A stretch of DNA of 58,585 nt. It comes from Vicinamibacteria bacterium. Lineage in GTDB: Bacteria > Acidobacteriota > Vicinamibacteria > Fen-336. Numbering within the stretch: position 1 is the stretch's first letter; each line of letters starts with the position of its first letter. The DNA lies in the NCBI GenBank assembly GCA_023701125.1, contig JAMPXO010000016.1, positions 1 to 58,585 of the forward strand. The letters are read 5' to 3'. Below, piece after piece: positions 3,669 through 35,057 of the stretch. The notes beneath the pieces are model-generated. The model was not told where the DNA came from and ran no database searches. It saw only the letters and a program-made list of their open reading frames with translations. A program made the translations under genes and the position numbers.

Positions 3669-3682
3669 CGTCTTCGGTCGGG

Positions 3683-5095: not shown

Positions 5096-5187
5096 TGGTC
5101 GTACCCCTCCCCAGAGTCCACCCTACGCGCCGCGACCGCCCGCTGTCAAAGCCGGGCAGGGCGCGTGAGCCCCGTCACAGGCCCGCA

Positions 5188-5216
5188 TTGTGGTGCCCCC
5201 GGCCCTCGGATAGGAT
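5188..5216 (+). promoter_or_regulatory. Candidate sigma-70 promoter for the giant surface protein
   Basis: TTGTGG (5188-5193), a 17-base spacer and TAGGAT (5211-5216) lie 120 bases ahead of the start codon at 5336, in the 240-base gap between divergent genes. The spacing is canonical; the hexamers are partial matches. Confidence 0.4.
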
Positions 5217-5335
5217 GGTGTGTCGGCGTCATCCTCCCTCCTGACACCGGCGTTTGTCCGCGAACGCCGTCTCACCTCGAAGTGTCTCCATCGCGATCTC
5301 GAGGGTTGACGGGCGGCGTTCCTGGGGGAGTGTTC

Positions 5336-11300: not shown

Positions 11301-14300
11301 CGGTGGCCGTCGACGGCGTCCACGACAACCTGCTGCAGGACTTCGGCTACGAGCGCTTCCTCGGCTCGGTCGGCGACACGGTCTACTGGGACGCCAACGA
11401 GAACGGCACCCAGGACGTGGGCGAGCCGGGCATCTCCGGCGTCCTGGTCAGCCTCTACGACTGCACCTGGGCGGACGACGGCGACTTCATCTTCGAGAGC
11501 GCCGAGCGGAGCTGCACGGTCGCGCTGGACACCGTCACCACCACCGTCGACGACCCGCTGACGACGGCCGACGAGGGCGGCAAGTACCTGTTCTCGAACC
11601 TCGACACGCTGGCCACCAACCACTACTACGTGGTGGGCGTGGACACCGCTTCGCTGCCCGGCCCCTACGTGACCAGCCCGGGCCCTGGCGTCTACCTGAC
11701 CGCGGACCCCGAGACCGACGGTCTCGTCTGCACGTCGCTGACGCCGTCCACCAACCCGCCGTCGACCACCTGCGACAACTTCAACCTGGTCCAGGTCTTC
11801 CGCGGCGGCCTCAACTACCTGGGCGCCGACTTCGGCTACCAGATCGCCTCGCTGCCCAACTACGCCAAGCTCGGCGACCACGTCTGGATCGACACCGATG
11901 GCGACGGCACGCTCGACGTCGGCGAGCCGGGCATCCCCAACATCAGCGTCTGGATCGACGCCGACGGCGACGGCGTCCTCGACTGGTCCGACGCCAACTC
12001 GAACGGCGAGTGGGACTCGGGTGAAGGCGAGCGCTGGACCGTGACCGACACGGACGGCTACTACCTGTTCACCGGCCTGGCCGACGGCTCGTACCAGGTC
12101 CGGGTGCTGACCTCCGACGCGGACTGGCCCTCCGGGCTGCCGACCACGCCGACGTTCGAGGTGCGCTCGACCAACCTCACCAGCCTCGACAGCATCGCGA
12201 TCGCCACGATCTCCGGCGGTGCCGTCACCGCCATCGACGACGGCCACGTCGGCAACACCGACACCTGCACGAACTGCGACCTGAACGTCGACTTCGGCTA
12301 CCGCTACGCCGGCACCAACAGCCTGAGCGGCACGGTCTGCATCGACGCCCCGGCCGAGGACGGCAACTGCGGCCGCGAGACGGCGAGCGTCACCACCACC
12401 AGCGGCAGCGCGACCGTGACCTCGGCCGGGCTGTTCTCGTCCGACATGGTCGGCTCGTCGATCTCCGGCACGGGCATCCCGGCGGGCGCGACGATCACCG
12501 CCTTCACCGACGCCAACACGGTCACGATCAGCGCGCCGGCGACCGCGGACGGCACGGTGACGGCCACCATCAACCGCTACTCCGGCACCATCCCCGGCGA
12601 CGAGTCGCCGATGTCCGGCATCAGCGTCTACCTCTACCGGTGGACCGACACCGACGCCGACAACGTCGCCTGGGCCACGGACGGCACGCTCGACGCCGGC
12701 GACACCTTCGTGCTGATGGGCTCGACGTCGACCGACGCCAACGGCGACTACTCGTTCACCAACGTGCCCGACGACGTCGTCATCGTCTTCGGCGTCAACC
12801 CGGCGCAGAGCCTGCTGCTCAACACCACCCAGGCCAACACGGCGGTGGAGGACGGCGGGCTCAGCCAGCAGGTCTACAACGGCCAGACGATCTACGACTC
12901 GACGCTGGTGGCCTCGATCATCCGCCAGGCGCTGAAGCTGGCACCCGACGCCGACAACGTCGTTCGCAACGTCGACTACGCCTTCGACGGCACCTACAAC
13001 GGGGCCATCACCTACGACTACGGCGACCTGCCCAACGACACCTACGGCGCGACGGTGCCCGACTACAACATGACGCTGCTGCGCGTCGGCGGCGCTCGCC
13101 ACCTGGTCGGCAGCGTGTTCCTCGGCACGGGCGTGACCGCGGACACCGACGGCTTCGACAGCATCGACGCGGCCGGCGAGGTCGACGCCGTCGGCAACGA
13201 CGGCGTGGCGCTGGTCGGCGGCCAGATCAGCCCCGGCACCGACGGCGGTGCCCTGGACGTGTTCGTCACCAACCCGACCACCGCCCAGGCCTGGCTGGTC
13301 GGCTGGATGGACTTCAACAAGGACGGCGACTTCGCCGACGAAGGCGAGCGCATCGTGCAGCAGGCAGTCGTCGCCGGCCAGCAGTACGTCTTCTTCGACG
13401 TGCCGGCCACGCTGCCCGAGGCGGCGAGTGCCACCTACTTCGCGCGCTTCCGCATCTTCGCGACCGAGCCGCTGCTGATCTCGGCGACCGGCACCTCGCT
13501 CAGCTCGACGTTCGAGCCGCTCGGCGGCGAGGTCGAGGACTACGCCTTCGCGCTCAGCGTGACGGCGGCGGTCGTCAGCCGCTTCGAGGCCCGCGACACC
13601 GCTCGCGGCATGGCGCTGGAGTGGGAGACCGCCTCCGAGGTCGGTACCCTCGGCTGGTTCCTGCACCGCTACGACGACGAAGCGGGTCGCTTCGTGCCCG
13701 TCCACGAGCGGCGCCTGCCCTCGGTCCGGCGGCGCCAGGGGGGTCTCTACCGCTACGTGGACGAGACGGCGACACCCGGCCAGCCCTACACGTACCAGTT
13801 GGTCGAGGTCGAGCTGTCGGGCCGGACCAACGTCTACGGCCCGTACCGGGTCGACACCCGGAAGACCGACGCCAGCGCGGGTGCGCCGGTCGTGCAGGCC
13901 CGCGGCCGCCGGCTCGACGCCGCCGAGCGGGAGACGGGCTTCGCCAGCGTGCCCAAGGGCCCGTCGCGGCCCGCGGACAAGGACCACGCCTCCAGCCGCC
14001 AGCCCCCGTCCGGCCGGGCGGGGAGCGTGAAACTGGAAGTCGGCGCTCGCGGCCTCTACTACGTGAGCCTGGCGGATCTGGCCGCGTGGATCGGCCGGCC
14101 CGTCGACTACAAGCGCCTGGTCTCGCCGCAGAACCCGTACGCGCTGGTGCAGGGTGGGAACACGATCGCCTTCGACGTGACGCCCGACCGCCAGGGCCTG
14201 GTCTTCTTCGGCCAGGAGCTGGACTCGATCTACACGGCGCACAACGTCTACGGCTGGGGCGCCGGCACCGGCCGCGGTGTGCGGATGGCCGCTCGCAACG

Positions 14301-16072
14301 AGATGCAGCCGACGCCGGCGTCCGGCGCCGAGCTCTTCGGGCGCCGGGTCCACGCCGAGGTCGACCAGATCCAGGCCGACGACGCGTTCAACGAGCCGGA
14401 GGCCGACACCTTCCTGTGGGACTTCGTGTTCTGGGGCTACGACCCGGCGTTCACGTTCGACGCCGACGGCGCGCGCGCCGGCGAGGCCACGCTCAGCATC
14501 CGGGTGAAGGGCCTGTACGACACCCCCACCAGTCCCGACCACGTGGCGGCGGTGAAGATCAACGGTCAGCAGGTCGGCGAGGTGGTGCTCGACGGCCTCC
14601 AGGACCGGACGATCGAGCTGCCCTTCGAGGGCAGCGTGCTGGTCGACGGCGCCAACGTGCTCGAGCTGTCGGCCGACATCGACGTGGCGCCCAACACCGT
14701 GTTCATGGTCGACTCGTTCGAGATCCGCTACCCGAGCGTCTACCGCGCGGCCGGCGACCAGATCGAGGCCCGGGCGGACGGCAACGCCGCCGTCCTGCTC
14801 TCCGGCTTCAGCCGCCCCGACATCTTCGTCTACGACATCACCGACCCGCTGCGCCCGGTGCAGGTGAACGGCCGCCCGCGCACGTTCGGCGACGGGACGT
14901 TCGGCGTCGAGTTGACGCCGCCGTCGCCGGCCGACACCGTGTACTTCGCCGCCACGCCCGCGGCGTTCCAGGCTCCCGCCCGGATCTGGGAGAACGTGCC
15001 GTCGTCGCTCGCCACCGACGATCCCGGCGCCGAGTACGTGATCCTGGCGCCGGCGGCGCTCAAGGCGACGGCGCAACGGCTCGCGGACTACCGCTCCGAC
15101 CTGCGCACGATCGTGATCGACCTCGAGGACGTCTACGACGAGTTCAACCACGGCATCCCCAGCCCCCACGCGATCAAGGCGTTCTTCGACCACACGTGGC
15201 GCCACTGGAGCACGGCGCCGCGCTATGCGCTGCTGGTCGGCGACGGCTCCGTCGACTACAAGGACGTGTGGGGCCTCGGCCAGAACCTCGCACCGACGAT
15301 GCGCATCAACACCCCCAGCGGCCTGGTGCCGTCCGACGCCTGGTTCGGCGACCTCGACCAGGGCCAGCCTGGCCCGGAGGTGGTGATCGGTCGCCTGCCG
15401 GCGGCGGACCCCGCCGAACTCGACCAGATGATCGACAAGGTCCTGGCCCGCGAGGCGAGCCTGGGCAGCCCGTGGCAGGAGAAGACGGTGCTGGTCGCCG
15501 AGGTCGCGGATCACGCCGGCGCGTTCCCCGACGACTCCGAGCGGGTCGCGGCGGCCGACGGCGGCGTCCAGGAGAAGTTGTACCTGTCGCCGGCTGCCGG
15601 CGTGCCGGCCGTCACCACGACGTACGCACGCACCCAGTTGCTGGCCGCCTTCACGAACGGGGCGGGCTTCATCAGCTACCTCGGTCACGGCGGCTACGAC
15701 CGGATCGCCAACGAGACCCTGCTGCACAGCAACGACGTCGTCGGCATGACCAACCTCGACCAGCCGGTGATGACCGCGATGACCTGCGTCGTCAACGACT
15801 TCGCCCAGGCCGGCGACGCCAGCATCGGCGAGTTGCTGATGCGCCAGCCTGGCGGCGGCGCGGCGGCCCTGTGGGGCGCGTCCGCACTGTCCCAGAACGA
15901 GTTCGCCGTGCTGCTGGCCGAGGGCTTCTACGCGTCGATCACCGCCGGCGGCGGCGATCGGCTCGGCGACGCCGTCCGCGAGTCGGTCGCCCGCTACGAC
16001 ACGACCGGTGGGCCGAAGTACCTGGGCAACGGTTATGTCCTGCTCGGCGACCCGGCGATGCGGGTGCGCTGA
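5336..16072 (+). CDS. Giant secreted SdrD-repeat protein with C25 gingipain-type peptidase domain
   Basis: A 3578-residue exported protein. ATG at 5336 follows a GGGGGAG ribosome site and begins a clear signal peptide ending near LAQ-G. In order: a beta-rich N-terminal region; a DUF11-like segment (GGTLTYTISATNSTG); about ten SdrD-B-like beta-sandwich repeats at roughly residues 669-2490, with DxDGDGxxDxxE calcium-type loops and GxYxF strands; a GEVED domain at about 2560-2742 (WMDFNKDGDFADEG ... GGEVEDYAF); a fibronectin-like segment; and a C25 peptidase domain at about 3230-3555. The candidate dyad is His3451 (YLGHGG) and Cys3484 (MTCVVNDF). Their 33-residue spacing agrees with the known gingipain His/Cys spacing. 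No T9SS-type C-terminal domain is visible. It is probably a surface adhesin or processing protease; the substrate is unknown. Confidence 0.88.
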   Translation: MQTSSRAVKGRILWALALAVLCAPQGLAQGVLSIEIVNGYNLIVDSNVTAPSTYAPGAAYIGAQVCNTGNATLDNVTAYVGNYQATRSFTATTTAGSRTITATGVGANAFAPTTEGGLLISGSPNIPAGTTLSAIASATSATLSAPATVSGSLTVTLTAAPGVFPVTTFGADPNPLRFHLANTGPYSLTLEVGSGSLEDGTRYVGSLAAGECRIQYWLFSYPQCVNVSGAPQYPPCDVSIAGGIKAEDDLSLDYDIWATTTTAIASPTVVETGDFTMRNEISASANKIWPNTASKVPDEYLAAIQGVVGWGTLGPDGQPLTAASAVYPGQRVITTQGIWYDLGNVGHGFDNNGDLIPDQNAWLQPVGDAASFDTACFRMVNVYGIVIVKLKDGGELLIPFQNQLYHENLPDNTGVVGLVYYQYIATREGCAANMTPYQEAASGYDNEKFSADYGLNLGLQSGEFDTDLTFSKTDGVTTVAPGGTLTYTISATNSTGVALGAPDLGTPLVFRESIPTGTTYVASSADNTMVAPTGTGTYSQGFTDVDGNLDPCPINYNITSSSWLPFYSNDGGFTWVLTPEPSGVTDIRWLLQTTIALDGSHDRSACVAPNGVYDDGTLDTSLPPGKTVSVQFQVTVDTNPSAVICNTARVGFGPALSNVEATDCTLVSGPNSIAGRVFEDDGGDGTATYGNGLIDNATEVGIGNGTTGTLVRLYYDANADGLLDEGDLYYDETFASATGAYSFTLLPDGNFIVVAKKYDGVTVTTTAGSMTVTSPQAVFTSDDIGKSISGNGIPLGATIAAVISPTEIEISSNATVSNTVIALVAAGTSDAATEFLAGRVTNADLTTGWGNTTYDPNLALTTDSGILKLHEDLTTVSLAISIDLDHSNALNQSLTTTELTAINFGFAPPFELTKTVAATTVDEGDLFDYTIVLTNRLPSVGVQGPSGCQYTAWATTGSNGTPANKEFTNFAEAHDGPNRQVATAYIEGGANRFMYSQGFRLADQAGSITRVEVLVMAYYDGTLDNDRLELQARLAGVDNTLTTINSAAMASYIGPPPDLNPNSAISWDVTSNRPGGGSWTWADDFFGLRVYTNPAKASGADPRTFSMDAVGIRVTTDADCVAGTSTTLDPVPLQDRYDATWMSFVSAVPPPTTVSGSTLQWDNVGPILPGTSTTVTVTMRANDVAGLELGSCATTFAGIPGTAPPTDTLCNLAETAYTGHNVYYADGRLANDDDDKVAVNIQGKGELRGTVFRDDGNTAADGWAMEAASIDLRLANVSVTLFACVKADGVTLETGATNNKTCLTQTGGNSWLAWSTTITDADGAYEFLGLDSGYYIIQVGDTDGDVTTAGSSPFGFTQTAEARDTQTVTGLNSNGDDCLPISGGVTCNSTWGSSTADLNVGFNLLNGAAEETINGIDFGYFSTEVLIYGNVWHDVDGDATRDTGDGDLDNFTVQLYTDPNGDGDPADGALVSTDVSDADGNYAFTVNILASTNYTIVVTPETLPNNVWAETDEATVTGGSVLTPLDLDNRIRVTVAPGATSGSHDFGYTLDTTSDIGDTVYIDFDADGIQDPTENGIPNVTVWLYEDVDRDGTIDAGVDDLLQTDVTDAFGEYLFTGLPEGNYIVQVDTTDPDFPSDVTATADPDIFAGTIGNYVWYDNDNDGVQDATEAGIPGVVVLLWAADANVGFNASQDTLIAATTTNINGNYLFTGLPAGSYYVTVDETTLPVTLSRSTPVAANSNLITLASSTASDLTADFGYYAAQVVIGSRVWHDTDGDGVQDAGEIGLPGVDITISGASCATPCTATTDEAGYWTLAFNTAGTALGNGTYTMTVDTTDLPSGVTATTGTTGTDSVTIAGLVDNVNLTTGGIVTTDFDFGYRYATGSPTGSITGSVFLDADGDDLLDSGEAMASVTVNLLDENGYVIATTTTDVTGAYAFTGVFIGDYAVEVLASYGTRYSVLFLSSTSGFPNLNVAYDATQATTADDQSSVAVDGVHDNLLQDFGYERFLGSVGDTVYWDANENGTQDVGEPGISGVLVSLYDCTWADDGDFIFESAERSCTVALDTVTTTVDDPLTTADEGGKYLFSNLDTLATNHYYVVGVDTASLPGPYVTSPGPGVYLTADPETDGLVCTSLTPSTNPPSTTCDNFNLVQVFRGGLNYLGADFGYQIASLPNYAKLGDHVWIDTDGDGTLDVGEPGIPNISVWIDADGDGVLDWSDANSNGEWDSGEGERWTVTDTDGYYLFTGLADGSYQVRVLTSDADWPSGLPTTPTFEVRSTNLTSLDSIAIATISGGAVTAIDDGHVGNTDTCTNCDLNVDFGYRYAGTNSLSGTVCIDAPAEDGNCGRETASVTTTSGSATVTSAGLFSSDMVGSSISGTGIPAGATITAFTDANTVTISAPATADGTVTATINRYSGTIPGDESPMSGISVYLYRWTDTDADNVAWATDGTLDAGDTFVLMGSTSTDANGDYSFTNVPDDVVIVFGVNPAQSLLLNTTQANTAVEDGGLSQQVYNGQTIYDSTLVASIIRQALKLAPDADNVVRNVDYAFDGTYNGAITYDYGDLPNDTYGATVPDYNMTLLRVGGARHLVGSVFLGTGVTADTDGFDSIDAAGEVDAVGNDGVALVGGQISPGTDGGALDVFVTNPTTAQAWLVGWMDFNKDGDFADEGERIVQQAVVAGQQYVFFDVPATLPEAASATYFARFRIFATEPLLISATGTSLSSTFEPLGGEVEDYAFALSVTAAVVSRFEARDTARGMALEWETASEVGTLGWFLHRYDDEAGRFVPVHERRLPSVRRRQGGLYRYVDETATPGQPYTYQLVEVELSGRTNVYGPYRVDTRKTDASAGAPVVQARGRRLDAAERETGFASVPKGPSRPADKDHASSRQPPSGRAGSVKLEVGARGLYYVSLADLAAWIGRPVDYKRLVSPQNPYALVQGGNTIAFDVTPDRQGLVFFGQELDSIYTAHNVYGWGAGTGRGVRMAARNEMQPTPASGAELFGRRVHAEVDQIQADDAFNEPEADTFLWDFVFWGYDPAFTFDADGARAGEATLSIRVKGLYDTPTSPDHVAAVKINGQQVGEVVLDGLQDRTIELPFEGSVLVDGANVLELSADIDVAPNTVFMVDSFEIRYPSVYRAAGDQIEARADGNAAVLLSGFSRPDIFVYDITDPLRPVQVNGRPRTFGDGTFGVELTPPSPADTVYFAATPAAFQAPARIWENVPSSLATDDPGAEYVILAPAALKATAQRLADYRSDLRTIVIDLEDVYDEFNHGIPSPHAIKAFFDHTWRHWSTAPRYALLVGDGSVDYKDVWGLGQNLAPTMRINTPSGLVPSDAWFGDLDQGQPGPEVVIGRLPAADPAELDQMIDKVLAREASLGSPWQEKTVLVAEVADHAGAFPDDSERVAAADGGVQEKLYLSPAAGVPAVTTTYARTQLLAAFTNGAGFISYLGHGGYDRIANETLLHSNDVVGMTNLDQPVMTAMTCVVNDFAQAGDASIGELLMRQPGGGAAALWGASALSQNEFAVLLAEGFYASITAGGGDRLGDAVRESVARYDTTGGPKYLGNGYVLLGDPAMRVR
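5603..5811 (+). repeat. Nested 65-70-residue module, copy 1
   Basis: Encodes a TTTAGSRTI...LLISGSPNIPAGTTL...ATLSAPATVSG pattern inside the N-terminal domain of the giant protein. The same pattern recurs at about 7619 and 12388. The boundaries are approximate. Confidence 0.65.
7619..7815 (+). repeat. Nested 65-70-residue module, copy 2
   Basis: Carries TTTAGSMTVTSPQ, GKSISGNGIPLGATI and EISSNATVSN inside the first SdrD-B-like repeat, between the strand ending VVAKKYDG and the continuation TEFLAGRV. It matches copies 1 and 3 in protein pattern. Confidence 0.65.
12388..12576 (+). repeat. Nested 65-70-residue module, copy 3
   Basis: Carries TTTSGSATVTSAG, GSSISGTGIPAGATI and VTISAPATADG inside the last SdrD-B-like repeat, between CGRET and the continuation ESPMSGISVYLY. 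Confidence 0.65.
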
Positions 16073-17169: not shown

Positions 17170-17637
17170 ATGGCAGCGGAAGTGAAGGACGCACGCGAAG
17201 AGCGCGAGGTGTGGAGCGCGTACCTCGTCCAGCACGGCCTCAAGCGCAGCGAGCAGCGCGAGGCGATCCTCGAGGTGTTCCTGCGCACCGAGAACCACCT
17301 GTCGGTGGAAGACCTGCTGCAGCTCGTCCAGAAGCGGCGGCCCGACGTCGGCCGCACCACGGTCTATCGCACGCTGAAGCTGCTGTCCGCCGCCGGCCTC
17401 GCCCGCGAGCTGCACCTCGACGGCGAGACCCGCTTCGAGCGCGACTGGAACCGCGAGCACCACGACCACTTCATCTGCCGCGCCTGCGGCGACATCTTCG
17501 AGTTCAAGAGCGACGAGATCGAGAAGCTGCAGGAGGAGATCGCGGAACGGATCGGCTTCGCGATCGACGGCCACCGCCACCACATCTACGGCCTGTGTCG
17601 CCGCTGCCAGGCGAAGGCCGCCGCGAGCCGCCGCTGA
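17170..17637 (+). CDS. Fur-family transcriptional regulator
   Basis: A 155-residue protein with the Fur fold. The N-terminal winged helix has LKRSEQREAILEVFL and the recognition segment DVGRTTVYRTLKLL. The metal-binding dimerisation domain has HHDHFICRACGDIFEF and the closing GLCRRCQ. Both CxxC pairs of the structural zinc site and the His-rich regulatory site are present, so it should be functional. The residues do not separate Fur from Zur or PerR. It lies 36 bases behind the nucleotidyltransferase gene and ahead of the enolase-family gene. Nothing around it points to a specific iron or zinc uptake target. Confidence 0.9.
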   Translation: MAAEVKDAREEREVWSAYLVQHGLKRSEQREAILEVFLRTENHLSVEDLLQLVQKRRPDVGRTTVYRTLKLLSAAGLARELHLDGETRFERDWNREHHDHFICRACGDIFEFKSDEIEKLQEEIAERIGFAIDGHRHHIYGLCRRCQAKAAASRR

Positions 17638-19306: not shown

Positions 19307-20604
19307 GTGCCGGCGCGGTGTGCGAGCACCGCGCCGACCAGGTACAGGCTGCCCGCGACCACGACCGGCTCGCCGCGCCGCGCGAGCGCCGCGGCCAGCG
19401 CCAGCCCGGCGCGCAGCGAGCGCGCGCGGCGAGCCCGTGTCGCGACGGCGCCCGCACGGCGGGCGATGGTGGCGGGGGAGGCCGCGCGGGCCCCCGGCGC
19501 CTTGACCAGCACCACCTCGCGCGCGAGCGGGAACAGCGCGGCCGTGACCTGCTCGAGGTCCTTGTCGGCCATCGCGCCGAACAGCAGCACGCACGAGCGC
19601 AACGGCGCGAGAGCGGCCGCCAGCGCGCGCGCGCCGTCGACGTTGTGGGCGCCGTCGAGCAGCAGCGGCGGCCGGCCCGCGATCCACTCCAGTCGCCCCG
19701 GCCAGTGCGCCGTTGCGAAGCCCGCGACGGCGCGGGCGAGATCGAAGCGCAGGCCGCTGGCGTGGGCCTCTTCGAGCACCCGCAACGCGACCTTCAGGTT
19801 GGCGCTCTGATGGGGGCCGGGCAGCGCCTGTACGCCGCGATGGCGGGCGTGCGGCGTGGTCGCGTCCAGGCGCGCCGGCCACAGCGCGCGCGGCTGGCCG
19901 CGGCGTGGCCGCGACGCCAGCGGTCGCAGCCGCACGTCGGCTTCCGCGTCCACCAGGCGCGCGCCGCTGGCGCGGGCTCGCGCCACGATCACCGCTGTGG
20001 CCTCGGCGGGCAGCGCGCCGATCACGGTCGGCCGTCCCCGCCGCATCACCCCGGCCTTCTCGCGCGCGATGTGGCGCAGGGTGGGACCGAGGTACTCCTG
20101 GTGGTCGAGGCCGAGGCTGACGATCGCGCTCACCCGCGGATCGCTCAGGTTGGTGGCGTCGAGCCGGCCGCCGAGGCCGACCTCCAGCACCTGCACGTCG
20201 ACTCGCGCGTCGCGGAAGATCAGCCACGCCGCGGCGGTGATCGCCTCGAAGTAGGTGGGGGCGGCGGGCAGCGCGCCGCGCGCGACCAGCGCCTCGGAGA
20301 CCTCCCGCACGCGTGAGAGGGCCCGCGCCAGCACGCGGGTGGCGACGGGGCGCCCGTCGACGGTGATCCGCTCCTCCGGCCGCACGAGGTGCGGCGAGGT
20401 GTAGCGCCCGACCCGCAGCCCGCCCGCCCGCAGGCCGGCATCGAGCAACGCCACGACGGACCCCTTGCCGTTGGTCCCCGCCACGAGCAATGCGGGCGCA
20501 CACCGCTCGGGCCGACCCAGCGCCCGCATCAACTGTCGCAAGGGCCCGAGCCCGAGCTTGATCCCGAAGCGCGCCCGCGATCGCAGCCAGGTGAAGGGCC
20601 CCAT
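19192..20604 (-). CDS. folC: Dihydrofolate/folylpolyglutamate synthase
   Basis: A 470-residue Mur-ligase-family enzyme. It has the P-loop LLVAGTNGKGSVVALL near residue 42, RYTSPHLVRPEERI, the FEAITAAAW segment, EVGLGGRLDATN, LGLDHQEYLG, the REKAGVMRRG lysine region and LLLDGAHNVDGA in the C-terminal domain. It adds glutamate to folates in the cytoplasm. The last roughly 38 codons run into the convergent redoxin gene, giving an unusual basic Ser/Arg-rich tail after VGAVLAHR where family members usually stop. It is divergent from mraZ across a 94-base region with MraZ-like boxes. Confidence 0.9.
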   Translation of the reverse strand: MGPFTWLRSRARFGIKLGLGPLRQLMRALGRPERCAPALLVAGTNGKGSVVALLDAGLRAGGLRVGRYTSPHLVRPEERITVDGRPVATRVLARALSRVREVSEALVARGALPAAPTYFEAITAAAWLIFRDARVDVQVLEVGLGGRLDATNLSDPRVSAIVSLGLDHQEYLGPTLRHIAREKAGVMRRGRPTVIGALPAEATAVIVARARASGARLVDAEADVRLRPLASRPRRGQPRALWPARLDATTPHARHRGVQALPGPHQSANLKVALRVLEEAHASGLRFDLARAVAGFATAHWPGRLEWIAGRPPLLLDGAHNVDGARALAAALAPLRSCVLLFGAMADKDLEQVTAALFPLAREVVLVKAPGARAASPATIARRAGAVATRARRARSLRAGLALAAALARRGEPVVVAGSLYLVGAVLAHRAGTHQGAGESSGSSRARKSFDSRSSAPIAASTTRPARSTR

Positions 20605-20623
20605 GGCCCGCGATCCTAGCGCG

Positions 20624-20685
20624 GTGGCGGCTGTGGAAACTTTTGTCGGGCCCGGGTGTGGAAATGTGGGAGAAAGTGTGGAAAA
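20624..20685 (+). promoter_or_regulatory. Cluster of GTGG boxes upstream of the first mraZ
   Basis: GTGG occurs at 20624, 20633, 20658, 20666 and 20678. Three of these lie in the octamer TGTGGAAA (20632, 20657 and 20677). MraZ proteins bind TGGG-type direct repeats ahead of their own gene. The spacing here is less regular than at the second mraZ. No convincing promoter hexamers are seen. Confidence 0.5.
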
Positions 20686-20698
20686 CTCCTAGCTCGCT

Positions 20699-21157
20699 GT
20701 GTTCAAAGGGACTTATCGCCACCGCATCGACCCCAAGGGGCGCCTGCCCGTGCCCGCGGCCTTCCGCCGCGCGTTGCCGGAGGCGGACAAGGGGCTCGTG
20801 TTGACGGCCCTCGACGGCTGTCTCGCCGCCTACCCGCTCGCGGAGTGGGCGCGGCTCGAGCAGCAGCTCGCGCAGTTGCCCGCGTTCTCGAAGCCCGTGA
20901 AGGCCTTGTCCCGCCTGCTGCTGTCGCGCGCGATCGACTGCGAGCTCGACGTCCAGGGCCGCATCCTGGTGCCGCCGAACCTCCGCGCCGCCGCCTCGCT
21001 CGGGTCCGAGGTGGTGGTGGTCGGCGTCCTCAACCGTTTCGAGTTGTGGGCGCCCGACTCGTGGGACGCCTTCTGCCGCGACTCCGAGCAACTGCTCGAC
21101 GACGTCTCCCTGGGCGTCGAATGGCCGCTCCGTCCACAGGGAAACCCCAACAGCTAG
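20699..21157 (+). CDS. mraZ: MraZ transcriptional regulator, first copy
   Basis: A 152-residue protein starting at GTG 20699. It has the two SpoVT/AbrB-like halves of MraZ: FKGTYRHRIDPKGRLPVPAAFR at the N-terminus and LSRAIDCELDVQGRILVPPNLR in the middle, each with the DxxGRxxxP signature. MraZ is a DNA-binding protein that controls the dcw cluster and usually represses its own promoter. The copy is followed by a second, differently diverged mraZ with its own promoter, so the two may regulate each other. Confidence 0.92.
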   Translation: MFKGTYRHRIDPKGRLPVPAAFRRALPEADKGLVLTALDGCLAAYPLAEWARLEQQLAQLPAFSKPVKALSRLLLSRAIDCELDVQGRILVPPNLRAAASLGSEVVVVGVLNRFELWAPDSWDAFCRDSEQLLDDVSLGVEWPLRPQGNPNS

Positions 21158-21169
21158 TTCGATTAAGGC

Positions 21170-21198
21170 TTGACACCCCCCGGAGCCACTCCTAGACT
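21170..21198 (+). promoter_or_regulatory. Sigma-70 promoter for the second mraZ and dcw operon
   Basis: TTGACA (21170-21175), exactly 17 bases, then TAGACT (21193-21198). This is the best promoter match in the window. Transcription would start near 21205, directly in the GTGG boxes, and would read into mraZ-rsmH-ftsL and the genes behind. Confidence 0.8.
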
Positions 21199-21203
21199 CC
21201 GCG

Positions 21204-21247
21204 GTGGTCACTTGTGGAAAAAAGTGGGTCGAAATCCCTCGCGGTGG
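21204..21247 (+). promoter_or_regulatory. Phased MraZ-box operator
   Basis: GTGG starts at 21204, 21214, 21224 and 21244, all on one 10-base register with only 21234 missing. MraZ of E. coli binds TGGG-type repeats separated so that one repeat falls each helical turn, between promoter and gene. The same geometry here, immediately behind the promoter, indicates autorepression. Confidence 0.72.
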
Positions 21248-21277
21248 GGGATCGAGGACCCATTGGGGCCAAGGGGC

Positions 21278-21721
21278 ATGCTCCGGGGCAACCATCCGGC
21301 TCGCGTCGACGACAAGGGACGGCTGAAGATCCCGAACGCTTTTCGTGTGCTCCTCGAGGCGCAGTACGGCCCCGAGGTGTTCGTCACGAGCGTCACGGGT
21401 GAGTACGTCCGCGTGTATCCGATGCCCGTCTGGCTCGAGATCGAGCGGAAGCTCGCCGCGGTGCCGCAGTCGAGTCCCGCGCGCCAGCGTTTCCTCGATC
21501 GCGTCAACTTCTTCGGGCAGGTGCTGAGCCTCGACAAGCAGGGTCGCGTGCTGATTCCCCAGTTGCTGCGCGAGTCGGCCGCGATGAGCGGCGAGGTCGC
21601 CGTGCTGGGCCTGATGAACCACGTCGCGGTGTGGAACCACAAGCGGCTCCACGACCGGCTGTTCAAGAAGGAGCCCTTCACGGACGAGGACGGCCGCGTG
21701 CTCGCGGAGTTCGGGATCTGA
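21278..21721 (+). CDS. mraZ: MraZ transcriptional regulator, second copy
   Basis: A 147-residue MraZ. ATG at 21278 begins MLRGNHPARVDDKGRLKIPNAFR, the expected family N-terminus; the longer open frame upstream covers the promoter and operator and is rejected. The second half has FFGQVLSLDKQGRVLIPQLLR. The sequence is clearly diverged from the first copy, with different residues flanking both DxxGR signatures. It directly precedes rsmH with a one-base gap, the normal position of the single mraZ in other bacteria. This copy is therefore probably the ancestral operon member and the upstream one the extra. Confidence 0.92.
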   Translation: MLRGNHPARVDDKGRLKIPNAFRVLLEAQYGPEVFVTSVTGEYVRVYPMPVWLEIERKLAAVPQSSPARQRFLDRVNFFGQVLSLDKQGRVLIPQLLRESAAMSGEVAVLGLMNHVAVWNHKRLHDRLFKKEPFTDEDGRVLAEFGI

Positions 21722-21722
21722 T

Positions 21723-22622
21723 GTGGAGGACGCCCCGCGTCACCTCCCCGTCCTGCTCGCCGAGGTGCTGGAGCTGCTCGCGGTGAAGCCGGGCGGGTCA
21801 TGGGTCGACGGCACGCTCGGCCTCGGCGGCCACGCGGAAGCGGTGCTCGAGCGCTCGTCGCCCGACGGCCGCCTGCTCGGCCTCGATCGTGATCCCGCGG
21901 CGCTGGCGCTGGCCCGCACCCGCCTCGCCCGCTTCGGCGATCGGCTGCGCACCGAGCACGCGGACTTCCGCGCGCTGCCGGAGCTGCTCAAGCACGACGC
22001 GCCCGACGGCATCCTGCTCGACCTCGGCGTCAGCTCCATGCAGCTCGACGACCCGACCCGCGGCTTCAGCTTCCGCGCCGACGGCCCGATCGACATGCGG
22101 CTCGACCCGACTCGCGGCGAGCCGGCGTCCGAGCTCGTCAACCGCCTCAACGAGTTCGACCTGGCCGACCTGATCTACCGCTTCGGCGAGGAGCATCGCT
22201 CGCGGCGCATCGCGCGCGCGATCGTGTCGGCCCGCCCGCTGAACAGCACCACCGCGCTGGCCGAGGTCGTGCGCCGCGCCGCCGGCCGCCCGCGGCGCGG
22301 GATCGACAACGCCACGCTCACCTTCCAGGCGCTGCGGATCGCCACCAACGGCGAGCTCGACGAACTCGGCGCCACGCTCGAGCAGCTCGCCCACCGCCTC
22401 GCCCCTGGCGGCCGGCTGGCCGTGATCGCCTTCCACAGCCTCGAGGACCGCGTCGTCAAGCACACCTTCCGCGCCCTCGCCGCCCGCGGCTTCTCGCTGC
22501 TGACCCGCAAGCCGGTGGTGGCCTCGGCCGAAGAAGAGCGCGCCAACCCCCGCGCGCGCAGCGCCAAGCTGCGGGTGCTGCGGCGCGACCCGGCGATGGA
22601 CGCGCTGGGCGAAGCCGCATGA
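21723..22622 (+). CDS. rsmH: 16S rRNA (cytosine1402-N4)-methyltransferase
   Basis: A 299-residue SAM-dependent enzyme, formerly MraW. It starts at GTG 21723, shares the TGATGTG junction with mraZ and ends overlapping ftsL (ATGA). Key segments are HLPVLLAEVLELL, the SAM-binding WVDGTLGLGGHAEAVL, LGLDRDPAAL, GILLDLGVSSMQLDDPTRGFSF and LAVIAFHSLEDRVVKHTF. It methylates N4 of C1402 in the 30S decoding centre. Length and motif order are standard. Confidence 0.96.
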   Translation: MEDAPRHLPVLLAEVLELLAVKPGGSWVDGTLGLGGHAEAVLERSSPDGRLLGLDRDPAALALARTRLARFGDRLRTEHADFRALPELLKHDAPDGILLDLGVSSMQLDDPTRGFSFRADGPIDMRLDPTRGEPASELVNRLNEFDLADLIYRFGEEHRSRRIARAIVSARPLNSTTALAEVVRRAAGRPRRGIDNATLTFQALRIATNGELDELGATLEQLAHRLAPGGRLAVIAFHSLEDRVVKHTFRALAARGFSLLTRKPVVASAEEERANPRARSAKLRVLRRDPAMDALGEAA

Positions 22623-23050
22623 GCACCGACCCGCGCAGCGTCGCCCTGTCCGGCATCGGCAAGGCGATCGACAACTCGGGCGTGATCCGCGAGCGCGACC
22701 CACGCGCCTCGCGCGACGTGCGCCACCTGCTGCTGCTGGTCGCGTTGTTCGTCGGCGGCATGGTGCTCTACGCCTGGCCCCACTTCGAGCTGCGCCAGAC
22801 CGGCGTGCTCTCCGACCGCCTGCAGCGCGAGCGCGAGCGGCTGGTCGAAGAGAACCGCAAGCTGCAACTGGAGAAGGCGAGCCTCGAGAACCTGAAGCGG
22901 GTGGAGTCGATCGCCCGTCGCGACCTGCACCTCGCCACCCCCGCCGCTCGCGACGTGTACGTCGTCGAGCGCAGCGCGGCGCCGGCTTCGTCGGAGGCGA
23001 TGGCGGCGCTGCCGGCCTCGCCGGTCGCGAGCCCGGAGGTGCGGCAGTGA
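22619..23050 (+). CDS. ftsL: Cell division protein FtsL
   Basis: A 143-residue bitopic membrane protein. A short cytoplasmic N-terminus is followed by one membrane helix (HLLLLVALFVGGMVLYAWP, near residues 36-54). A coiled coil follows (LSDRLQRERERLVEENRKLQLEKASLENL). The Ala-rich tail overlaps ftsI by four bases. Position between rsmH and ftsI and the helix plus leucine-zipper topology identify it. FtsL links FtsQ/FtsB to activation of the FtsW-FtsI synthase. Confidence 0.85.
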   Translation: MSTDPRSVALSGIGKAIDNSGVIRERDPRASRDVRHLLLLVALFVGGMVLYAWPHFELRQTGVLSDRLQRERERLVEENRKLQLEKASLENLKRVESIARRDLHLATPAARDVYVVERSAAPASSEAMAALPASPVASPEVRQ

Positions 23051-25140
23051 TGGACCGCACGCGCCAGTCGCGGCTGCGGCTGATGTTCCTGGCGATGGGC
23101 GTGACGTTCTGGGGGATCGTGGTGCTCGGTCGCCTGATCCAGCTCCAGGTCTTCCAGCGCCCCGCCTTCGAGCGGCTCGCCTCCAAGCAGAGCGAGCGCA
23201 CGCTCAACCTCGCCCCCCGCCGCGGCCCGATCCTCGACCGCGACGGCCGCGCCCTGGCCGTCTCGGTCGACGCCGAGAGCCTGTACGCGGTGCCGCAGGA
23301 CGTCGACGACCCGGAAGCCACCGCCGCGGCTCTCGCTCGCGCGCTCGGCCTCGACGCCAGTCACCGCCGGGACCTCGTCGTCCAGCTCGGCAAGACCAGC
23401 CGCTACTTCGTGTGGGTCGAGCGCAAGCTCGATCCCGTCCGCGCTCACGCCGTGCGCGAGCTGGGCCTGCCGGGAATCGGCTTCCTGACCGAGAGCCGCC
23501 GCTACTACCCCAAGCGCGAGCTGGCCGCGCAGGTGCTCGGCTACGTGGGCCTCGACGACCACGGCATGTGGGGCATCGAGCAGGAGCTCGACGAGCGCAT
23601 CCGCGGCCGCGCGGCCAAGGTCGTGGTCCGCACCGACGCCCGGCGCCGGCCCGTCGAGCACGTCGAGAAGCCGTCGACCGAAGGCCACGCGGTGGTGCTG
23701 ACGATCGACGAGTCGATCCAGCACGTCGCGGAGGTCGAGCTCGAGAAGGCGGTCCGCGCCACCGGCTCGATCGCCGGCTTCGCGGTGGTGATGGACCCGC
23801 GCAGTGGCGAGATCCTGGCGATCGCCAACCAGCCGACCTTCAACCCCAACCGCTACGCGGCCTACTCGCGCAACACGTGGCGCAACCGGGCGGTGGCCGA
23901 CGCCTTCGAGCCGGGCTCGATCTTCAAGATCTTCACCGCCGCTGCCGGCCTGCAGGAGGGCCTGGTCACGCCCGACGAGGTGATCGACTGCGGCGGCGGC
24001 TTCGTCGAGGTCAGCGGCATCCGCATCAACGACCACGGCGTGTTCCACCAGCTCGCCTTCCGCGACGTGATCGCGCGCTCGTCGGACGTCGGCGTCGTGC
24101 GCGTGGCCCAGCGCCTGGGCCGCGACCAGTTCGGCAAGTACCTGCGCGACTTCGGCTTCGGCGCCCGGACCGGGATCGAGTTGCCGGCCGAGATCCCGGG
24201 CCTGCTGCGGCCGACCCAGCGCTGGAACGCGGTCTCGCTGGCGTCGCTCTCGTTCGGCCAGGAGATCGGCGTCACCGCGATCCAGATGACCGCGGCGGCG
24301 GCCGCCGTGGCCAACGGCGGCTACCTGATGAAGCCGCAGATCGTCAAGCGCCTGCTCGACGCCCAGGGCCGGGTGGTGTCGGAGCCGGCGCCGGTCGCGG
24401 TGCGCCGGGTGCTGACGCCGGAGACGGTCGACGTGCTGACCGAGATCCTGAAACGAGTGGTCACCGACGGCACCGGCCGCAAGGCGGCGATCGACGGCTA
24501 CGTGGTCGCCGGCAAGACCGGCACCGCCCAGAAGTTCGACTTCGCGGCGAAGAAGTACTCGATGATCGACCACGTCGCCTCGTTCGTCGGCTTCGCGCCG
24601 GCCTCGCGGCCCGCGATCGTCGTGCTGGTCTCGCTCGACGAGCCCAAGGGCGCCGCCAACCAGGGCGGCGACGTCGCCGCGCCGCTGTTCTCGAAGATCG
24701 CCGAGCACGCGCTGCGCCGGCTCGCGGTGGCGCCCGACGCCGAGGACCGGGTGCTGCGCCCGGTGCCCGGCGAGCCCGCGCTGCGCGCGGCGCTGACGGC
24801 ACCCGACCCGGCGCTCAGCACCGTCGCCCTCGACGCCGGCGACCCGCTGCTGATGCCCGACCTGCGCGGCCGCAGCGCGCGCGAGGCCGCCGCCGCCGCT
24901 GCCCGCCGCGGGCTGATCGTGGAGCTGCGCGGCAGCGGGCGCGTCGTCGAGCAGGCGCCGGCACCCGGCACCGAGCTGGAGACGGGCATGGCCTGCGTGC
25001 TGACGCTCTCACCCATCGGGTTCCAACGCCGGGATGAACCCGGCGTCGGTCCCATGGGGGCTACGTCGCAAACGGAGCTCCTCCGCCCCCAAGCCCCCAT
25101 GCCGCCTGCTACCAGCTCGCTCGGCGAGGGGCCGCAGTGA
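23047..25140 (+). CDS. ftsI: Septal peptidoglycan transpeptidase FtsI (PBP3) with PASTA domain
   Basis: A 697-residue class B penicillin-binding protein. It has an N-terminal membrane helix, the dimerisation segment NLAPRRGPILDRDGRALAVS (two parts), then the transpeptidase domain. The active Ser291-Ile-Phe-Lys294 lies in EPGSIFKIF, KTG starts at Lys490 (VAGKTGTAQK), and the second motif is S345-S346-D347 where SSN is usual. One PASTA domain (MPDLRGRSAREA...) follows. After VLTLSP, where the domain should end, about 42 residues are encoded by a palindromic repeat element, giving GFQRRDEPG...[13 protein letters not shown] at 23047 and the end at 25140 overlap ftsL and murE. Confidence 0.94.
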   Translation: MMDRTRQSRLRLMFLAMGVTFWGIVVLGRLIQLQVFQRPAFERLASKQSERTLNLAPRRGPILDRDGRALAVSVDAESLYAVPQDVDDPEATAAALARALGLDASHRRDLVVQLGKTSRYFVWVERKLDPVRAHAVRELGLPGIGFLTESRRYYPKRELAAQVLGYVGLDDHGMWGIEQELDERIRGRAAKVVVRTDARRRPVEHVEKPSTEGHAVVLTIDESIQHVAEVELEKAVRATGSIAGFAVVMDPRSGEILAIANQPTFNPNRYAAYSRNTWRNRAVADAFEPGSIFKIFTAAAGLQEGLVTPDEVIDCGGGFVEVSGIRINDHGVFHQLAFRDVIARSSDVGVVRVAQRLGRDQFGKYLRDFGFGARTGIELPAEIPGLLRPTQRWNAVSLASLSFGQEIGVTAIQMTAAAAAVANGGYLMKPQIVKRLLDAQGRVVSEPAPVAVRRVLTPETVDVLTEILKRVVTDGTGRKAAIDGYVVAGKTGTAQKFDFAAKKYSMIDHVASFVGFAPASRPAIVVLVSLDEPKGAANQGGDVAAPLFSKIAEHALRRLAVAPDAEDRVLRPVPGEPALRAALTAPDPALSTVALDAGDPLLMPDLRGRSAREAAAAAARRGLIVELRGSGRVVEQAPAPGTELETGMACVLTLSPIGFQRRDEPGVGPMGATSQTELLRPQAPMPPATSSLGEGPQ
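25015..25099 (+). repeat. Palindromic repeat element, copy A, inside ftsI
   Basis: Ordered blocks are GGGTTCC, a hairpin (CGCCGGG, loop ATGAA, CCCGGCG at 25027-25045), GGTCCC, two variable bases, GGGGGCTACGTCG and TCCTCCGCCCCC. The reverse complement of 47676-47763 has every block in the same order and nearly the same spacing, with a different but still complementary stem. Confidence 0.85.
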
Positions 25141-26615
25141 CGCTCGGCGAGTTGCTGGCCCGCATCCGGGTCGCGGTCCCAGCAGGGGTTGCGGCCGATG
25201 CCGCGGTGACGACGATCTGCCCCGACTCGCGGCGGGTCGGCGCGGGAGCCGTGTTCGTCGCCTTGCGCGGCGCGGTCGTCGACGGCAACACCTTCGCCGA
25301 CGCGGCGCTCAAGAAGGGTGCGCTGGTCATCGTCTCCGACCGCGAGCCGCCGGCGCCGGACCTGCCCTGGGTCCAGGTCGAGAACGCGCGCGTCGCCCTC
25401 GCGCAACTGGCCGCCCTGTTCCACGGCCGCCCTGCCGACGGCCTGGTGCTGGCGGGCGTCACCGGCACCAACGGCAAGACCACCGTCACCTACCTGATCG
25501 ACGCCGCGCTGCAGGCCGCCGGCCGTCGCGTGGGCCTGCTCGGCACCGTCGCCTACCGCGTCGGCGATCGCCTGGCCGAGGCCAACCGCACGACGCCCGA
25601 GTCGTCCGACCTGCAGGCGCTGCTGCGCGAGATGCGCGACGCCGACTGCAGCCACGCGGTGATGGAGGTCTCGTCGCACGCGCTGGCGCTGGAGCGCGTC
25701 CACGGCCTGCGCTTCGACGTCGCGGTGTTCACCCACCTGACCCGCGACCACCTCGACTTCCACGGCGACATGGACGGCTACTTCGCCGCCAAGAAACGGC
25801 TGTTCAGCGAGGGCCTGTCGCCCGCCGGCCGAGCCGTGATCAACGCCGAGGACGACCGCGCGGAGGCGCTCAGCGCGGCGTCGCCCGCGCCCGTGTGGAC
25901 GTTCGCCATCGAGCGCCCGGCGGATTTCGTCGCCCGCGACGTCTCGCTCGGCCTCGCCGGCACCCGCTTCACGGTGCACGGACCCGACGGCCAGACGGCG
26001 ATCGAGAGCCCGCTGCTCGGCCGCTTCAACGTGCAGAACCTGCTCGCCGCGTTCGCTGCCGCGCGGGCGATGGGCGTCCCGGTCGAAGCCGTGGTGGCGG
26101 GGCTGCAGAGCCTCGCCGGCGTGCCCGGGCGGCTGGAACGGATCGAGGCCGGCCAGGACTTCCGGGTGATCGTCGACTACGCCCACACCGACGACGCGCT
26201 GAAGAACCTGCTGGAGACCGTGCGCGCGCTGCAGCCGCGGCGGCTGATCACGGTGTTCGGCTGCGGCGGCGACCGCGATCGCACCAAGCGCCCGCTGATG
26301 GGCGCCGTCGCGTCCCGGCTCTCGGACGTCGTCGTGCTGACCTCGGACAACCCGCGCTCCGAGCCGCCCGAGTCGATCCTGGAGCAGATCCAGCGCGGCA
26401 TGAACGGCGGCCGCAAGACCGAGCGCCACGTGATCGCCGACCGCCGCGAGGCGATCGCGCGGGCGCTGGAGCTGGCCGGCCCGGGCGACGCGGTCGTGAT
26501 CGCCGGCAAGGGCCACGAGACGACGCAGACGATCCGCGACCGGGTGCTGCCGTTCGACGATCGCCAGGTGGTCCGCGAGGAGCTGGCGCGGATCGCCCGC
26601 GGGGCCCGCGCTTGA
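25137..26615 (+). CDS. murE: UDP-MurNAc-tripeptide synthetase, meso-diaminopimelate-adding
   Basis: A 492-residue Mur ligase. The GTG start at 25137 overlaps ftsI by four bases. It has [14 protein letters not shown], the P-loop [15 protein letters not shown] near residue 110, [30 protein letters not shown], the carbamoyl-Lys region YFAAKKRLF and [13 protein letters not shown]. The C-terminal [10 protein letters not shown] carries the DNPR motif associated with meso-diaminopimelate. It attaches that residue to UDP-MurNAc-L-Ala-D-Glu in the cytoplasm. This is the evidence for a DAP-type wall. Confidence 0.95.
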
Positions 26616-28009
26616 GCCCGCTCGCGCCGATGCTGACCCTGGGCCTGGTCGCCGAGGCCAGCGGCGGCGCGCTGCCCGCGCCCGCGACGGCGGCGCAGGC
26701 GCTCGCCGGCGTGTCGATCGACTCGCGCACCGTGGCGGCCGGGGAGCTGTTCGTCGCCGTCGCCGGGCCTCGCTTCGACGGCCACGACTTCCTGGCCGAG
26801 GCCCAGGCGCGCGGCGCCGCCGCGGCGCTGGTGAGCCGCGCGGACCAGGTGCCGAGTGGCCTGCCGTCGGTGGTGGTCGCGGACACGACGCGGGCGCTGG
26901 CCGACCTCGCCCGCCACGTGCGCCGGGTGTCGGGCGTGAAGGTGGCGGCGATCACCGGCTCCGCCGGCAAGACCACCACCAAGGAGATGCTGGCGGCCCT
27001 GCTCTCGACCGCCGCGCCGACCCTGAAGACCGAGGGCAACCTCAACAACCAGTACGGCCTGCCGCTGACGTTGCTGCGGCTGCGGCCCGAGCACCGCTAC
27101 GCGGCGCTCGAGCTCGGCATGTCGGCGCCCGGGGAACTGCGCGCGCTGTCGGCGATCGCCGCGCCCGACGTCGCCGCCATCACCAACGTCGGCCGCGCCC
27201 ACCTCGAGTTCTTCGCGGACCAGGACCAGATCGCGGAGGCCAAGGCCGAGGTGCTGGACGGGTTGTCGGCCTGCGGTGTCGCCGTGCTCAACCGCGACGA
27301 CCCGCGGGTGCGCCGCGTCGGCGAGCGTTTTCCCGGCCGCGTGCTCTGGTTCGGCCAGGACCGCGGTTGCGACGCCTCCGTCGAGAACTGGCGCGGCACG
27401 ATCCACGGCATGCGCTTCGACCTGCGCCTGGGCGGCGAGACCCACGACGTCGCGCTGGCGCTGGCCGGCCGCCACCACGTCGCCAATTTCCTGGCCGCCG
27501 CGCTGTGCGCCCACGCGATGGGCGTCGCCCCCGCGCAGATCGCCCAGGCCGCGTCCGGGCTGGCCCCTGCCCGCCGCCGCGGCGAGGTGCTGCGGCTGGG
27601 CTCGGGCGTGACCCTGCTCGACGACAGCTACAACGCCAACCCCGAGGCGGTCGCGGCCGCCGTGGCCGCGCTGGGCCTGGCGGCGAAGGGCCGTCGCGTG
27701 GCGTTCCTCGGCGACATGCTGGAGCTCGGGCCGCAGAGTGCCGAGATCCACGAGGCGACCGCGGCGACGGTGGCGCCCGGCCTCGACGCGCTGGTCGCGG
27801 TCGGGGCCTGGTCCGCGGCGCTGGCCCACGGCGCGTCGCGCTGCGGCCTCGACCGGTCCACGATCCACACCTTCGCCGACTCGGCCGCGGCGGCCGCCGC
27901 CGCGCCGGGCCTGGTGCAGCCGGGCGACGCGGTGCTGGTCAAGGGCTCGCGTGGCTCGCGCATGGACGTGGTCGCCGACGCGCTGGTCGCGGCGCTGGGG
28001 AAGGCCTGA
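26612..28009 (+). CDS. murF: UDP-MurNAc-pentapeptide synthetase
   Basis: A 465-residue Mur ligase that adds D-Ala-D-Ala to the UDP-MurNAc tripeptide. It has [17 protein letters not shown], the P-loop [64 protein letters not shown] and GDMLELG. TTG at 26612 is chosen because it overlaps the murE stop as TTGA, like the other junctions; ATG at 26630 is a possible alternative that removes six residues. It ends in an ATGA-type overlap with mraY. No ddl gene is in the cluster, so D-Ala-D-Ala must come from elsewhere. Confidence 0.94.
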
Positions 28010-29094
28010 TGCTCTTCCACCTGCTCTACGCGCTGCGCAGCGAGATCTCCGGCCTCAACGTCGTCCGTTACGTTACCTTCCGCACCGCGGTCGCCAGCCT
28101 GACGGCGTTCTTCCTGGTGCTGTTGCTGGGGCCGTGGCTGATCGAGCGCCTGCGCAGGTTCCAGATCGGCCAGCAGATCCGCAGCGACGGTCCGCAGTCG
28201 CACCAGGCCAAGGCCGGCACGCCGACGATGGGCGGGCTGCTGATCCTGGCCGGCATCCTGGTGCCGACCCTGCTGTGGGCCGACCTGACCAACCACAACG
28301 TGTGGATCCTGATCCTCTCGACGCTGGCCTTCGGCTCGATCGGCTTCTGGGACGACTACACGAAGGTCGCCCGCAAGCGCTCGCTGGGCCTCACCGCGCG
28401 CCAGAAGCTGCTGCTGCAGTTCACGGTCGGGCTGTCGCTGGGTGCGACGCTGTACGCGCTGGCCCAGCAGGGCGCGTTCTCGACCCGGATCGTGTTCCCG
28501 TTCTTCAAGACGTTCCAGCCCGACCTGCACGGGCTCTACATCGTGTTCGTGGCGCTGCTCGTGGTCTGGGCGTCGAACGCGGTGAACCTGACCGATGGCC
28601 TCGACGGGCTGGCGATCGGCTCGACGCTGATCTCCGCCGGCGCCTTCACCGTGCTCGCCTACGTCTGCGGCCACCGCGTGTTCTCCAGCTACCTCGACCT
28701 GGCGTTCATGCCGGGCGCCCACGAGGTGACGGTGTTCTGCGGCGCGATGGTCGGCGCCTCGCTCGGCTTCCTGTGGTGGAACTGCTACCCGGCGCAGGTG
28801 TTCATGGGCGACGTCGGCAGCCTGTCGCTGGGTGGCGCGCTCGGCACCGTGGCGATCCTGATCAAGCAGGAGCTGCTGTTCCTGCCGATCGGCGGGCTGT
28901 TCGTGATCGAGGCGCTGTCCGTGATGCTGCAGGTCGGCTCGTTCAAGCTGACCGGCAAGCGCATCTTCCGCATGGCGCCGCTGCACCACCACTTCGAGCT
29001 GATCGGCTGGAAGGAACCGCAGGTGATCGTCCGCTTCTGGATCGCCGCGTTCGTCTTCGCCCTGTTCAGCCTGACCACGTTGAAGCTGCGATGA
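28009..29094 (+). CDS. mraY: Phospho-N-acetylmuramoyl-pentapeptide transferase
   Basis: A 361-residue polytopic membrane enzyme that makes lipid I from UDP-MurNAc-pentapeptide and undecaprenyl phosphate. Typical segments are [16 protein letters not shown] near the N-terminus, [16 protein letters not shown], the catalytic [25 protein letters not shown] and [21 protein letters not shown]. About ten hydrophobic helices can be drawn. It overlaps murF and murD by one and four bases, so it is fully coupled in the operon. Confidence 0.96.
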
Positions 29095-30494
29095 GCGCGA
29101 CGCCCCGCCGCGCGCTGGTCGTCGGTCTCGCCCGCTCGGGCGTGGCGGCGGCGGAGCTGCTGCTGGCCGAGGGTGCGAGCGTCACCGTCACCGACCTGCA
29201 GCCCGAGGCGGCGCTCGCCGATCGGGCCGCGCGGCTGCGCTCCGCGGGCGCCCGGCTCGAGCTGGGCGGGCACGTCCGCCAGAGCTTCGAGCAGGCCGCG
29301 CTGGTGGTGGTCTCGCCGGGCGTGCCGTGGGATCACGCCGACCTGGCCGCGGCCCGCGCCGCCGGTGCCCTGGTGATCGGCGAGCTGGAGTTGTTCGCGC
29401 GCCGTGCGCAAGGCCCGGTCACGGCCGTCACCGGCAGCAAGGGCAAGTCGACGACGACCGCGGCGCTCGGCGCGATGCTGCGCGAGGCGTTCCCCGACGT
29501 GCGCACGGGCGGCAACCTCGGCGCCGCGGCCTGTGGCCTGCTCACGGGCCACGACGCCTCCACCCGCTTCGTGATCGAGGTGTCGAGCTTCCAGCTCGAG
29601 GCCCAGTCGTCGCTGCACCCACGAGTGGCCGTGTTCCTCAACCTCTCGGCCGACCACCTGGAGCGCCACGGCACGCTGGCCGTCTACGCCCAGGCCAAGG
29701 CCCGCCTGTTCGCCCGCCAGACCCCCGACGACTGGGCTGTGGTCGGTGCCGACGATCCGCAGGTGCTGGCGCTGGCGACCGCCGGCCGCGCGCGGGTGAT
29801 CGGCTTCGCGCGCAATGCCATCGTCCACCCGGCGCTGGCCGGCTCGGCCGCGTTCGAGAACGGCCGTGCAGTGCTGCGCCGCGACGGCGTCGCCGAGGTG
29901 CTGTTCGAGCGCGGTTCGCTCCAGCTCCCCGGCGAGCACCTGCACCTCGACCTGCTCGCGGCCGCCGCCGCGGCCCGGCTGCAGGGCGCGCCGGTCGACG
30001 CGATCGCCCGCGCCGCCGCCGCGTTCCGCGGCCTGCCCGACGTGCTGGAGCCGGCCGGCGAGATCGCCGGCGTGCGCTTCGTGAACGACACCAAGGCCAC
30101 CAACGTCGACGCGGTGCGCAAGAGCCTGGAGGCGTTCGCGGCGCCGGTGGTGCTGATCCTGGGCGGCCGCTACAAGGGCGGCGACTTCCGGCTGTTGCGC
30201 GACTACGTGCGCCCGCGCGCGGCGCTGCGGCTCAAGGCGGTGATGGCGATCGGCGAGGCGCGGCCGCTGGTCAACGAGGCGCTCGCCGACGTCGTGCCCG
30301 TGGTCGACTGCGACAGCCTCAAGGACGCGGTGACCTCGGGCCTGGCCGCGGCCGAGGCCGGCGAGGTCGTGCTGCTGGCGCCGGGCTGCGCCAGCTTCGA
30401 CATGTTCCGCGACTACGCGGACCGCGGCGCGCAGTTCCGCGAAGCGGTCGCCTGGCTGCGCCAGCGCGTGCCGGCGGCTGGAGTGCCGGCGTAA
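29091..30494 (+). CDS. murD: UDP-MurNAc-L-alanine:D-glutamate ligase
   Basis: A 467-residue Mur ligase. The Rossmann-like N-terminus ([19 protein letters not shown]) is followed by [11 protein letters not shown], the P-loop [62 protein letters not shown] and [12 protein letters not shown]. It adds D-Glu to UDP-MurNAc-L-Ala in the cytoplasm. The start overlaps mraY (ATGA), and the stop overlaps the ftsW start (TAATG). Confidence 0.96.
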
Positions 30495-31591: not shown

Positions 31592-31594
31592 ACC

Positions 31595-35054: not shown

Positions 35055-35057
35055 ACC

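Follow-up and report, generated by a model that had tools for sequence, protein, structure and literature searches.

The segment at positions 21170-21227 of the window (the whole 58,585-nucleotide stretch of Vicinamibacteria DNA analysed here) is very probably the autoregulatory promoter-operator of a division and cell-wall operon, as judged from its sequence and that of its relatives. This site, P2, comprises a promoter on the forward strand (21170-21198), TTGACA (21170-21175) and TAGACT (21193-21198) with 17 nt between them, followed by three GTGG boxes in a 10-bp register at 21204, 21214 and 21224 (21204-21227). Its sequence, geometry, conservation, uniqueness and gene order are matters of direct observation. 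P2 is an ordinary operator within an unusual control region: the gene that it precedes, mraZ2, stands in tandem with an upstream mraZ1 that has its own conserved array, and the control region thus comprises two MraZ genes and two arrays. An earlier note on this DNA had read P2 as the MraZ operator of the division operon, a reading supported by a geometry that is conserved in the order, in the class and in E. coli.

Within positions 20550-21300, P2 is the sole sigma-70-like site returned by a promoter scan (10 of 12 matches; shuffles, mean 0.0), and TTGACA and TA...T are kept at all 16 loci of the order. Box 1 sits on the predicted transcription start at approximately 21205, which the array thus spans, and the third box lies 50 nt from the start of mraZ2. 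The promoter and the GTGG tetramers that the earlier note had placed at 21204, 21214, 21224 and 21244 are exact to the base. Position 21234 reads ATCC, however, so the boxes form a group of three, then a gap, then one. Of the proposed four-box register, the first three positions are conserved, whereas the last (21244-21247, forward strand, in register at +40 from box 1) is not: GTGG occurs at +40 in only 4 of the 16 order loci, and a single genus accounts for three of these four. A four-box operator is thereby ruled out as the conserved core. The conserved core of the array is three boxes, and the GTGG at 21244 is at most an extra.

The distribution of this arrangement was followed by searching PF02381 in 60 genomes, including the window's own, 59 of which matched at E <= 0.001. 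Among the 17 genomes of the order, two mraZ genes are present in 16, and the other (G009, 63% complete) has no match. Upstream of mraZ2 in all 16, the promoter is followed after 4-5 nt by three NTGG boxes at 10 bp; the boxes are perfect GTGG in 13 and read GTGG/TTGG/GTGG in three members of family f2, and the promoter spacer is 17 nt in 12 loci, 18 in three and 19 in one. The class set consists of single-mraZ loci, one mraZ locus taken from each of 43 genomes, and 32 of these have the promoter and an array of at least two NTGG (one weak box being allowed in two). Three NTGG are found in 30 of the 43 and three GTGG in 17. The gap between the -10 and box 1 in the 32 loci is 4 nt in 30, 2 nt in one and 5 nt in one; of the 48 order and class loci that have both promoter and array, 47 have a gap of 4-5 nt. 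Conservation of the boxes before orthologous mraZ genes, which the earlier note had proposed to examine, is thereby borne out. In addition, the GTGG triple occurs at mraZ in all 13 family-f1 genomes that have the gene, with 22 matches in total in those genomes.

The 11 class loci that depart from the pattern are two shortened ones (L046 and L053) and nine of family f3 (L020, L038, L040, L042-L044, L049-L051). The latter count against a uniform arrangement, since they have the boxes (three GTGG at 10 bp in eight of the nine; TTGG/GTGG/ATGG, by eye, in L050) with no TTGACA promoter above them. In most family-f3 loci an A/T-rich -10-like hexamer lies 3′ of the array. Also counting against generality are 25 further upstream regions from the phylum, which were drawn from the best-scoring loci and are thus not a fair sample: three GTGG are present in 7, two in 5, one in 1 and none in 12, although several of those that have none carry TGGGA-type repeats at 10 bp instead, as read by eye.

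Similar comparisons extend to characterized systems. The MraZ operator of E. coli is reportedly Pmra, as set out by Eraso in 2014. Read from sequence, the region upstream of mraZ in E. coli K-12 is TTGACA-18-TAAACT-7-GTGG/GTGG/GTGG with the boxes at 10 bp, and therefore shares with P2 the TTGACA, the TA...T and, ahead of mraZ, a run of three GTGG spaced by 10 bp after the -10, while differing in its single mraZ, its 18-nt spacer, its distance of 7 nt rather than 5 from the -10 to box 1, and its GTGGG boxes. An E. coli 5′ leader is given as 38 nt in PMC5089854, so that the mapped start falls inside the E. coli GTGG array. In Burkholderia, PMC7761207 describes a gel-shift fragment of B. cenocepacia PmraBc, bound by MraZ, in which GTG repeats (7 nt each, separated by 3-nt spacers) lie 3′ of the -10 and over the transcription start, as at P2; the differences are that the repeats are four and that one MraZ is mentioned there. 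The Mollicutes site, given as (AAAGTGKN3)3 in PMC5282649 and PMC8475190, likewise has a 10-bp repeat with a GTG core followed by G or T, but belongs to a reduced cluster with one MraZ. No MraZ box sequence was found in the accessible parts of PMC5138195 and PMC9395523. The resemblance to the Mollicutes extends to flanking bases, as box 3 of P2 reads AAAGTGG and boxes 2 and 3 of the array before mraZ1 are mostly AAAGTG(G/T) in the order.

MraZ is a ring-shaped oligomer. In the proposed mechanism, a sigma-70 type polymerase would start at approximately 21205 from TTGACA-17-TAGACT, and MraZ, as an oligomeric ring (a shape described in PMC7761207), would bind the three GTGG boxes, which are one helical turn apart and thus lie on the same face of the DNA. 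Bound MraZ would cover approximately +1 to +24 and block initiation, and its accumulation would lower expression of mraZ2-rsmH-ftsL-ftsI-mur. Binding by MraZ, the start site, the sign of control (repression, not activation) and the identity of the acting MraZ are inferred. The proposed repression agrees with the M. genitalium data, in which loss of MraZ raises cluster expression, that is, MraZ represses (PMC8475190), and with the position of the B. cenocepacia site over the start.

Conceivably, the array could act positively, with MraZ as an activator, or the two MraZ proteins could differ, one repressing and the other relieving, for example in mixed rings. The presence of two MraZ of different lineages at one locus is compatible with this, and overexpression of MraZ in M. 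gallisepticum accompanied higher FtsZ (cited in PMC8475190), so control by MraZ need not have the same sign everywhere. However, +1 to +24 is a poor place for activator boxes, and the E. coli and M. genitalium data in the same source point to repression, which leaves positive action rather improbable. It is much less likely still that the boxes are a G-quadruplex or another DNA or RNA structure controlling mraZ instead of protein-binding boxes: a G-quadruplex has been described, and such control proposed, for a G-rich stretch 3′ of the S. aureus mraZ promoter (PMC11796246), but the boxes here mostly contain no more than two G in a row, and what is constrained is their 10-bp register, frequently across AT-rich spacers, which a G-quadruplex would not require.

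In the window, GTGG tetramers are over-represented (685 versus 591 expected), and GTGG-N6-GTGG-N6-GTGG occurs once versus 0.05 expected; because 5 of 100 shuffles also held such a triple, the window-only evidence is modest. Relaxed DTGK triples, representing NTGK-type boxes, number exactly two in the window, where 0.28 would be expected and one shuffle in 100 had as many; each mraZ is preceded by one of the two. In the whole 5.4-Mb draft genome, the exact GTGG triple has one site, at P2, and the reversed pattern also occurs once. Spacings between GTGG tetramers in the upstream regions peak at 10 and 20 (26 and 20 counts in the order, 53 and 33 in the class), with next highest counts of 4 and 10, respectively, and three GTGG in register appear in none of 1600 (order) or 4100 (class) dinucleotide shuffles. 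A chance periodicity of GTGG in G+C-rich DNA, which the over-representation and the shuffled triples would favor, is already contradicted by the same register and near-same -10 distance at 16/16 order and 32/43 class loci and by the single triple in the genome, and its probability is negligible; conservation of the array across these loci removes the doubt left by the window.

Downstream of P2 is the division and cell-wall operon, all on the forward strand. Its first gene is mraZ2 (21278-21721, ATG at 21278, 147 aa, native-type MraZ; PF02381 E 2.9e-18), followed by rsmH (mraW; 21723-22622; PF01795 E 3.3e-96) and by the rest of a packed cluster recognized by Pfam matches (22619-36305): ftsL, ftsI, murE, murF, mraY, murD, ftsW, a Mur ligase, ftsQ and ftsA. 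The first genes of the cluster are joined by consecutive 4-nt overlaps, and both mraZ head it, next to rsmH. A scan of 20550-21300 returned zero terminator-like sites, so that transcription from the region before mraZ1 (P1) may continue into the operon and there encounter MraZ bound at the P2 boxes.

mraZ1 (20699-21157, forward strand, GTG start, 152 aa; PF02381 E 3.3e-32) is predicted to encode an E. coli-type MraZ, with 43% identity to the E. coli protein and 31% to MraZ2. Both score over the curated PF02381 cut-off (110.7 bits for MraZ1 and 66.1 for MraZ2), each has two domain stretches, and the D-x-K-G-R and G-R motifs of both halves are kept in MraZ1, MraZ2 and E. coli MraZ; the solved MraZ structures 1n0e, 9qlr, 9sx6 and 9qlg are related by sequence to both. 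In a tree of 102 proteins, MraZ1 belongs to a clade (SH-aLRT 99) with E. coli, a record labelled proteobacterial and a small number of additional copies from acidobacteria, whereas MraZ2 clusters with the proteins of the class loci that have one mraZ. The tree argues against a recent duplication within the order, monophyly of MraZ1 and MraZ2 being rejected by the AU test (p 0.0216, on 146 columns with long branches). By sequence, then, MraZ1 is of the E. coli type and MraZ2 of the phylum's own type, and the two do not appear to be recent duplicates. A separate observation concerns L036, a proteobacterial record with an MraZ1-type MraZ, in which three GTGG at 10 bp lie nine nt past a -10-like hexamer.

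In a phylum sample of 297 genomes, six others have four MraZ domain matches; G080 and G092 show the genes in tandem, and the stretches from G115, G243 and G305 (the last on two contigs) have one mraZ open reading frame each (G249 was left out). The tandem pair in family f30, present in two genomes, has for each gene a promoter followed by two in-register GTGG; a third genome of that genus (G104) has zero MraZ match. A literature search, mostly at listing level, found no account of tandem mraZ; the term mraZ1p in PMC5089854 names a promoter.

Upstream of mraZ1 is the second array, at 20656-20683 on the forward strand, which the coordinates of the earlier note leave out; its motif is conserved at 16/16 order loci. 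It can be read equally as NTGK boxes at 10 bp (GTGT 20656, GTGG 20666, GTGT 20676) or as GTGG cores at 20658, 20666 and 20678, with spacings of 8 and 12 bp. The sequence TGTGGAAA(A/T)GTGG-N7-TGTGGAA precedes mraZ1 in all 16 order loci. Searched for in 21 genomes with a 27-base pattern (one mismatch allowed), it gives a single match in each of 15 and none in the other six, which are G009 plus five genomes of the class; the control with the pattern reversed gave zero matches.

A usual promoter for mraZ1 was sought in two ways: the consensus scan of 20550-21300 yielded none, and at 4-5 nt above the array none of the 16 loci has a convincing candidate (best scores average 4.1 of 12 and do not exceed 7, versus 10.0 at P2). 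By eye, the 50 nt above the array likewise hold no promoter common to these loci. The boxes themselves may contain the mraZ1 promoter. A putative TGGAAA (20659-20664), 17 nt and AAAACT (20682-20687), with TG before the -10, lies on the forward strand at 20659-20687, and its hexamers are present in this register at 16/16 order loci; the consensus scan of 20550-21300 did not return it. The corresponding pattern (TGGAAA-17-AANANT, TG before the -10) has a mean score of 7.4 inside the P1 array versus 4.6 at P2. These offsets were chosen after viewing the P1 data, and thus the embedded promoter is a proposal; moreover, its -35 match is partly inherent in GTGGAAA, since P2 boxes also score 3-4 of 6. 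In its favor, every one of the 16 P1 loci has at +24 a -10-like hexamer scoring 3-4 of 6, versus 0-3 at P2, and in the other class loci shown this hexamer reaches 4 once. The nine family-f3 loci give a similar picture, scoring 4.8 above the array and 7.6 inside it.

If the embedded promoter is real, 7-11 nt would separate the end of its -10 from the start codon, and the mraZ1 mRNA would be leaderless or nearly so. It could tentatively be supposed that the locus forms a two-repressor division switch, in which MraZ proteins of different ancestry stand in tandem with their own arrays in opposite layouts: at P2 the boxes would come after a strong promoter, and at P1 they would themselves hold the -35 (TGGAAA) and the extended -10, so that MraZ and polymerase would compete for the same bases. 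The tandem pair is a natural setting in which to ask whether two MraZ proteins use common operators or separate ones. More broadly, P2 adds Acidobacteriota to the groups with the MraZ control layout described for E. coli, Burkholderia and Mollicutes; in the order and class loci the distance from the -10 to box 1 is nearly fixed.

Elsewhere in the window, 5′ of the division cluster, a Fur-family regulator is found at 17170-17637 (PF01475), and a 4139-aa open frame at 3653-16072 appears by eye to encode a secreted, repeat-containing protein whose end is peptidase-like.
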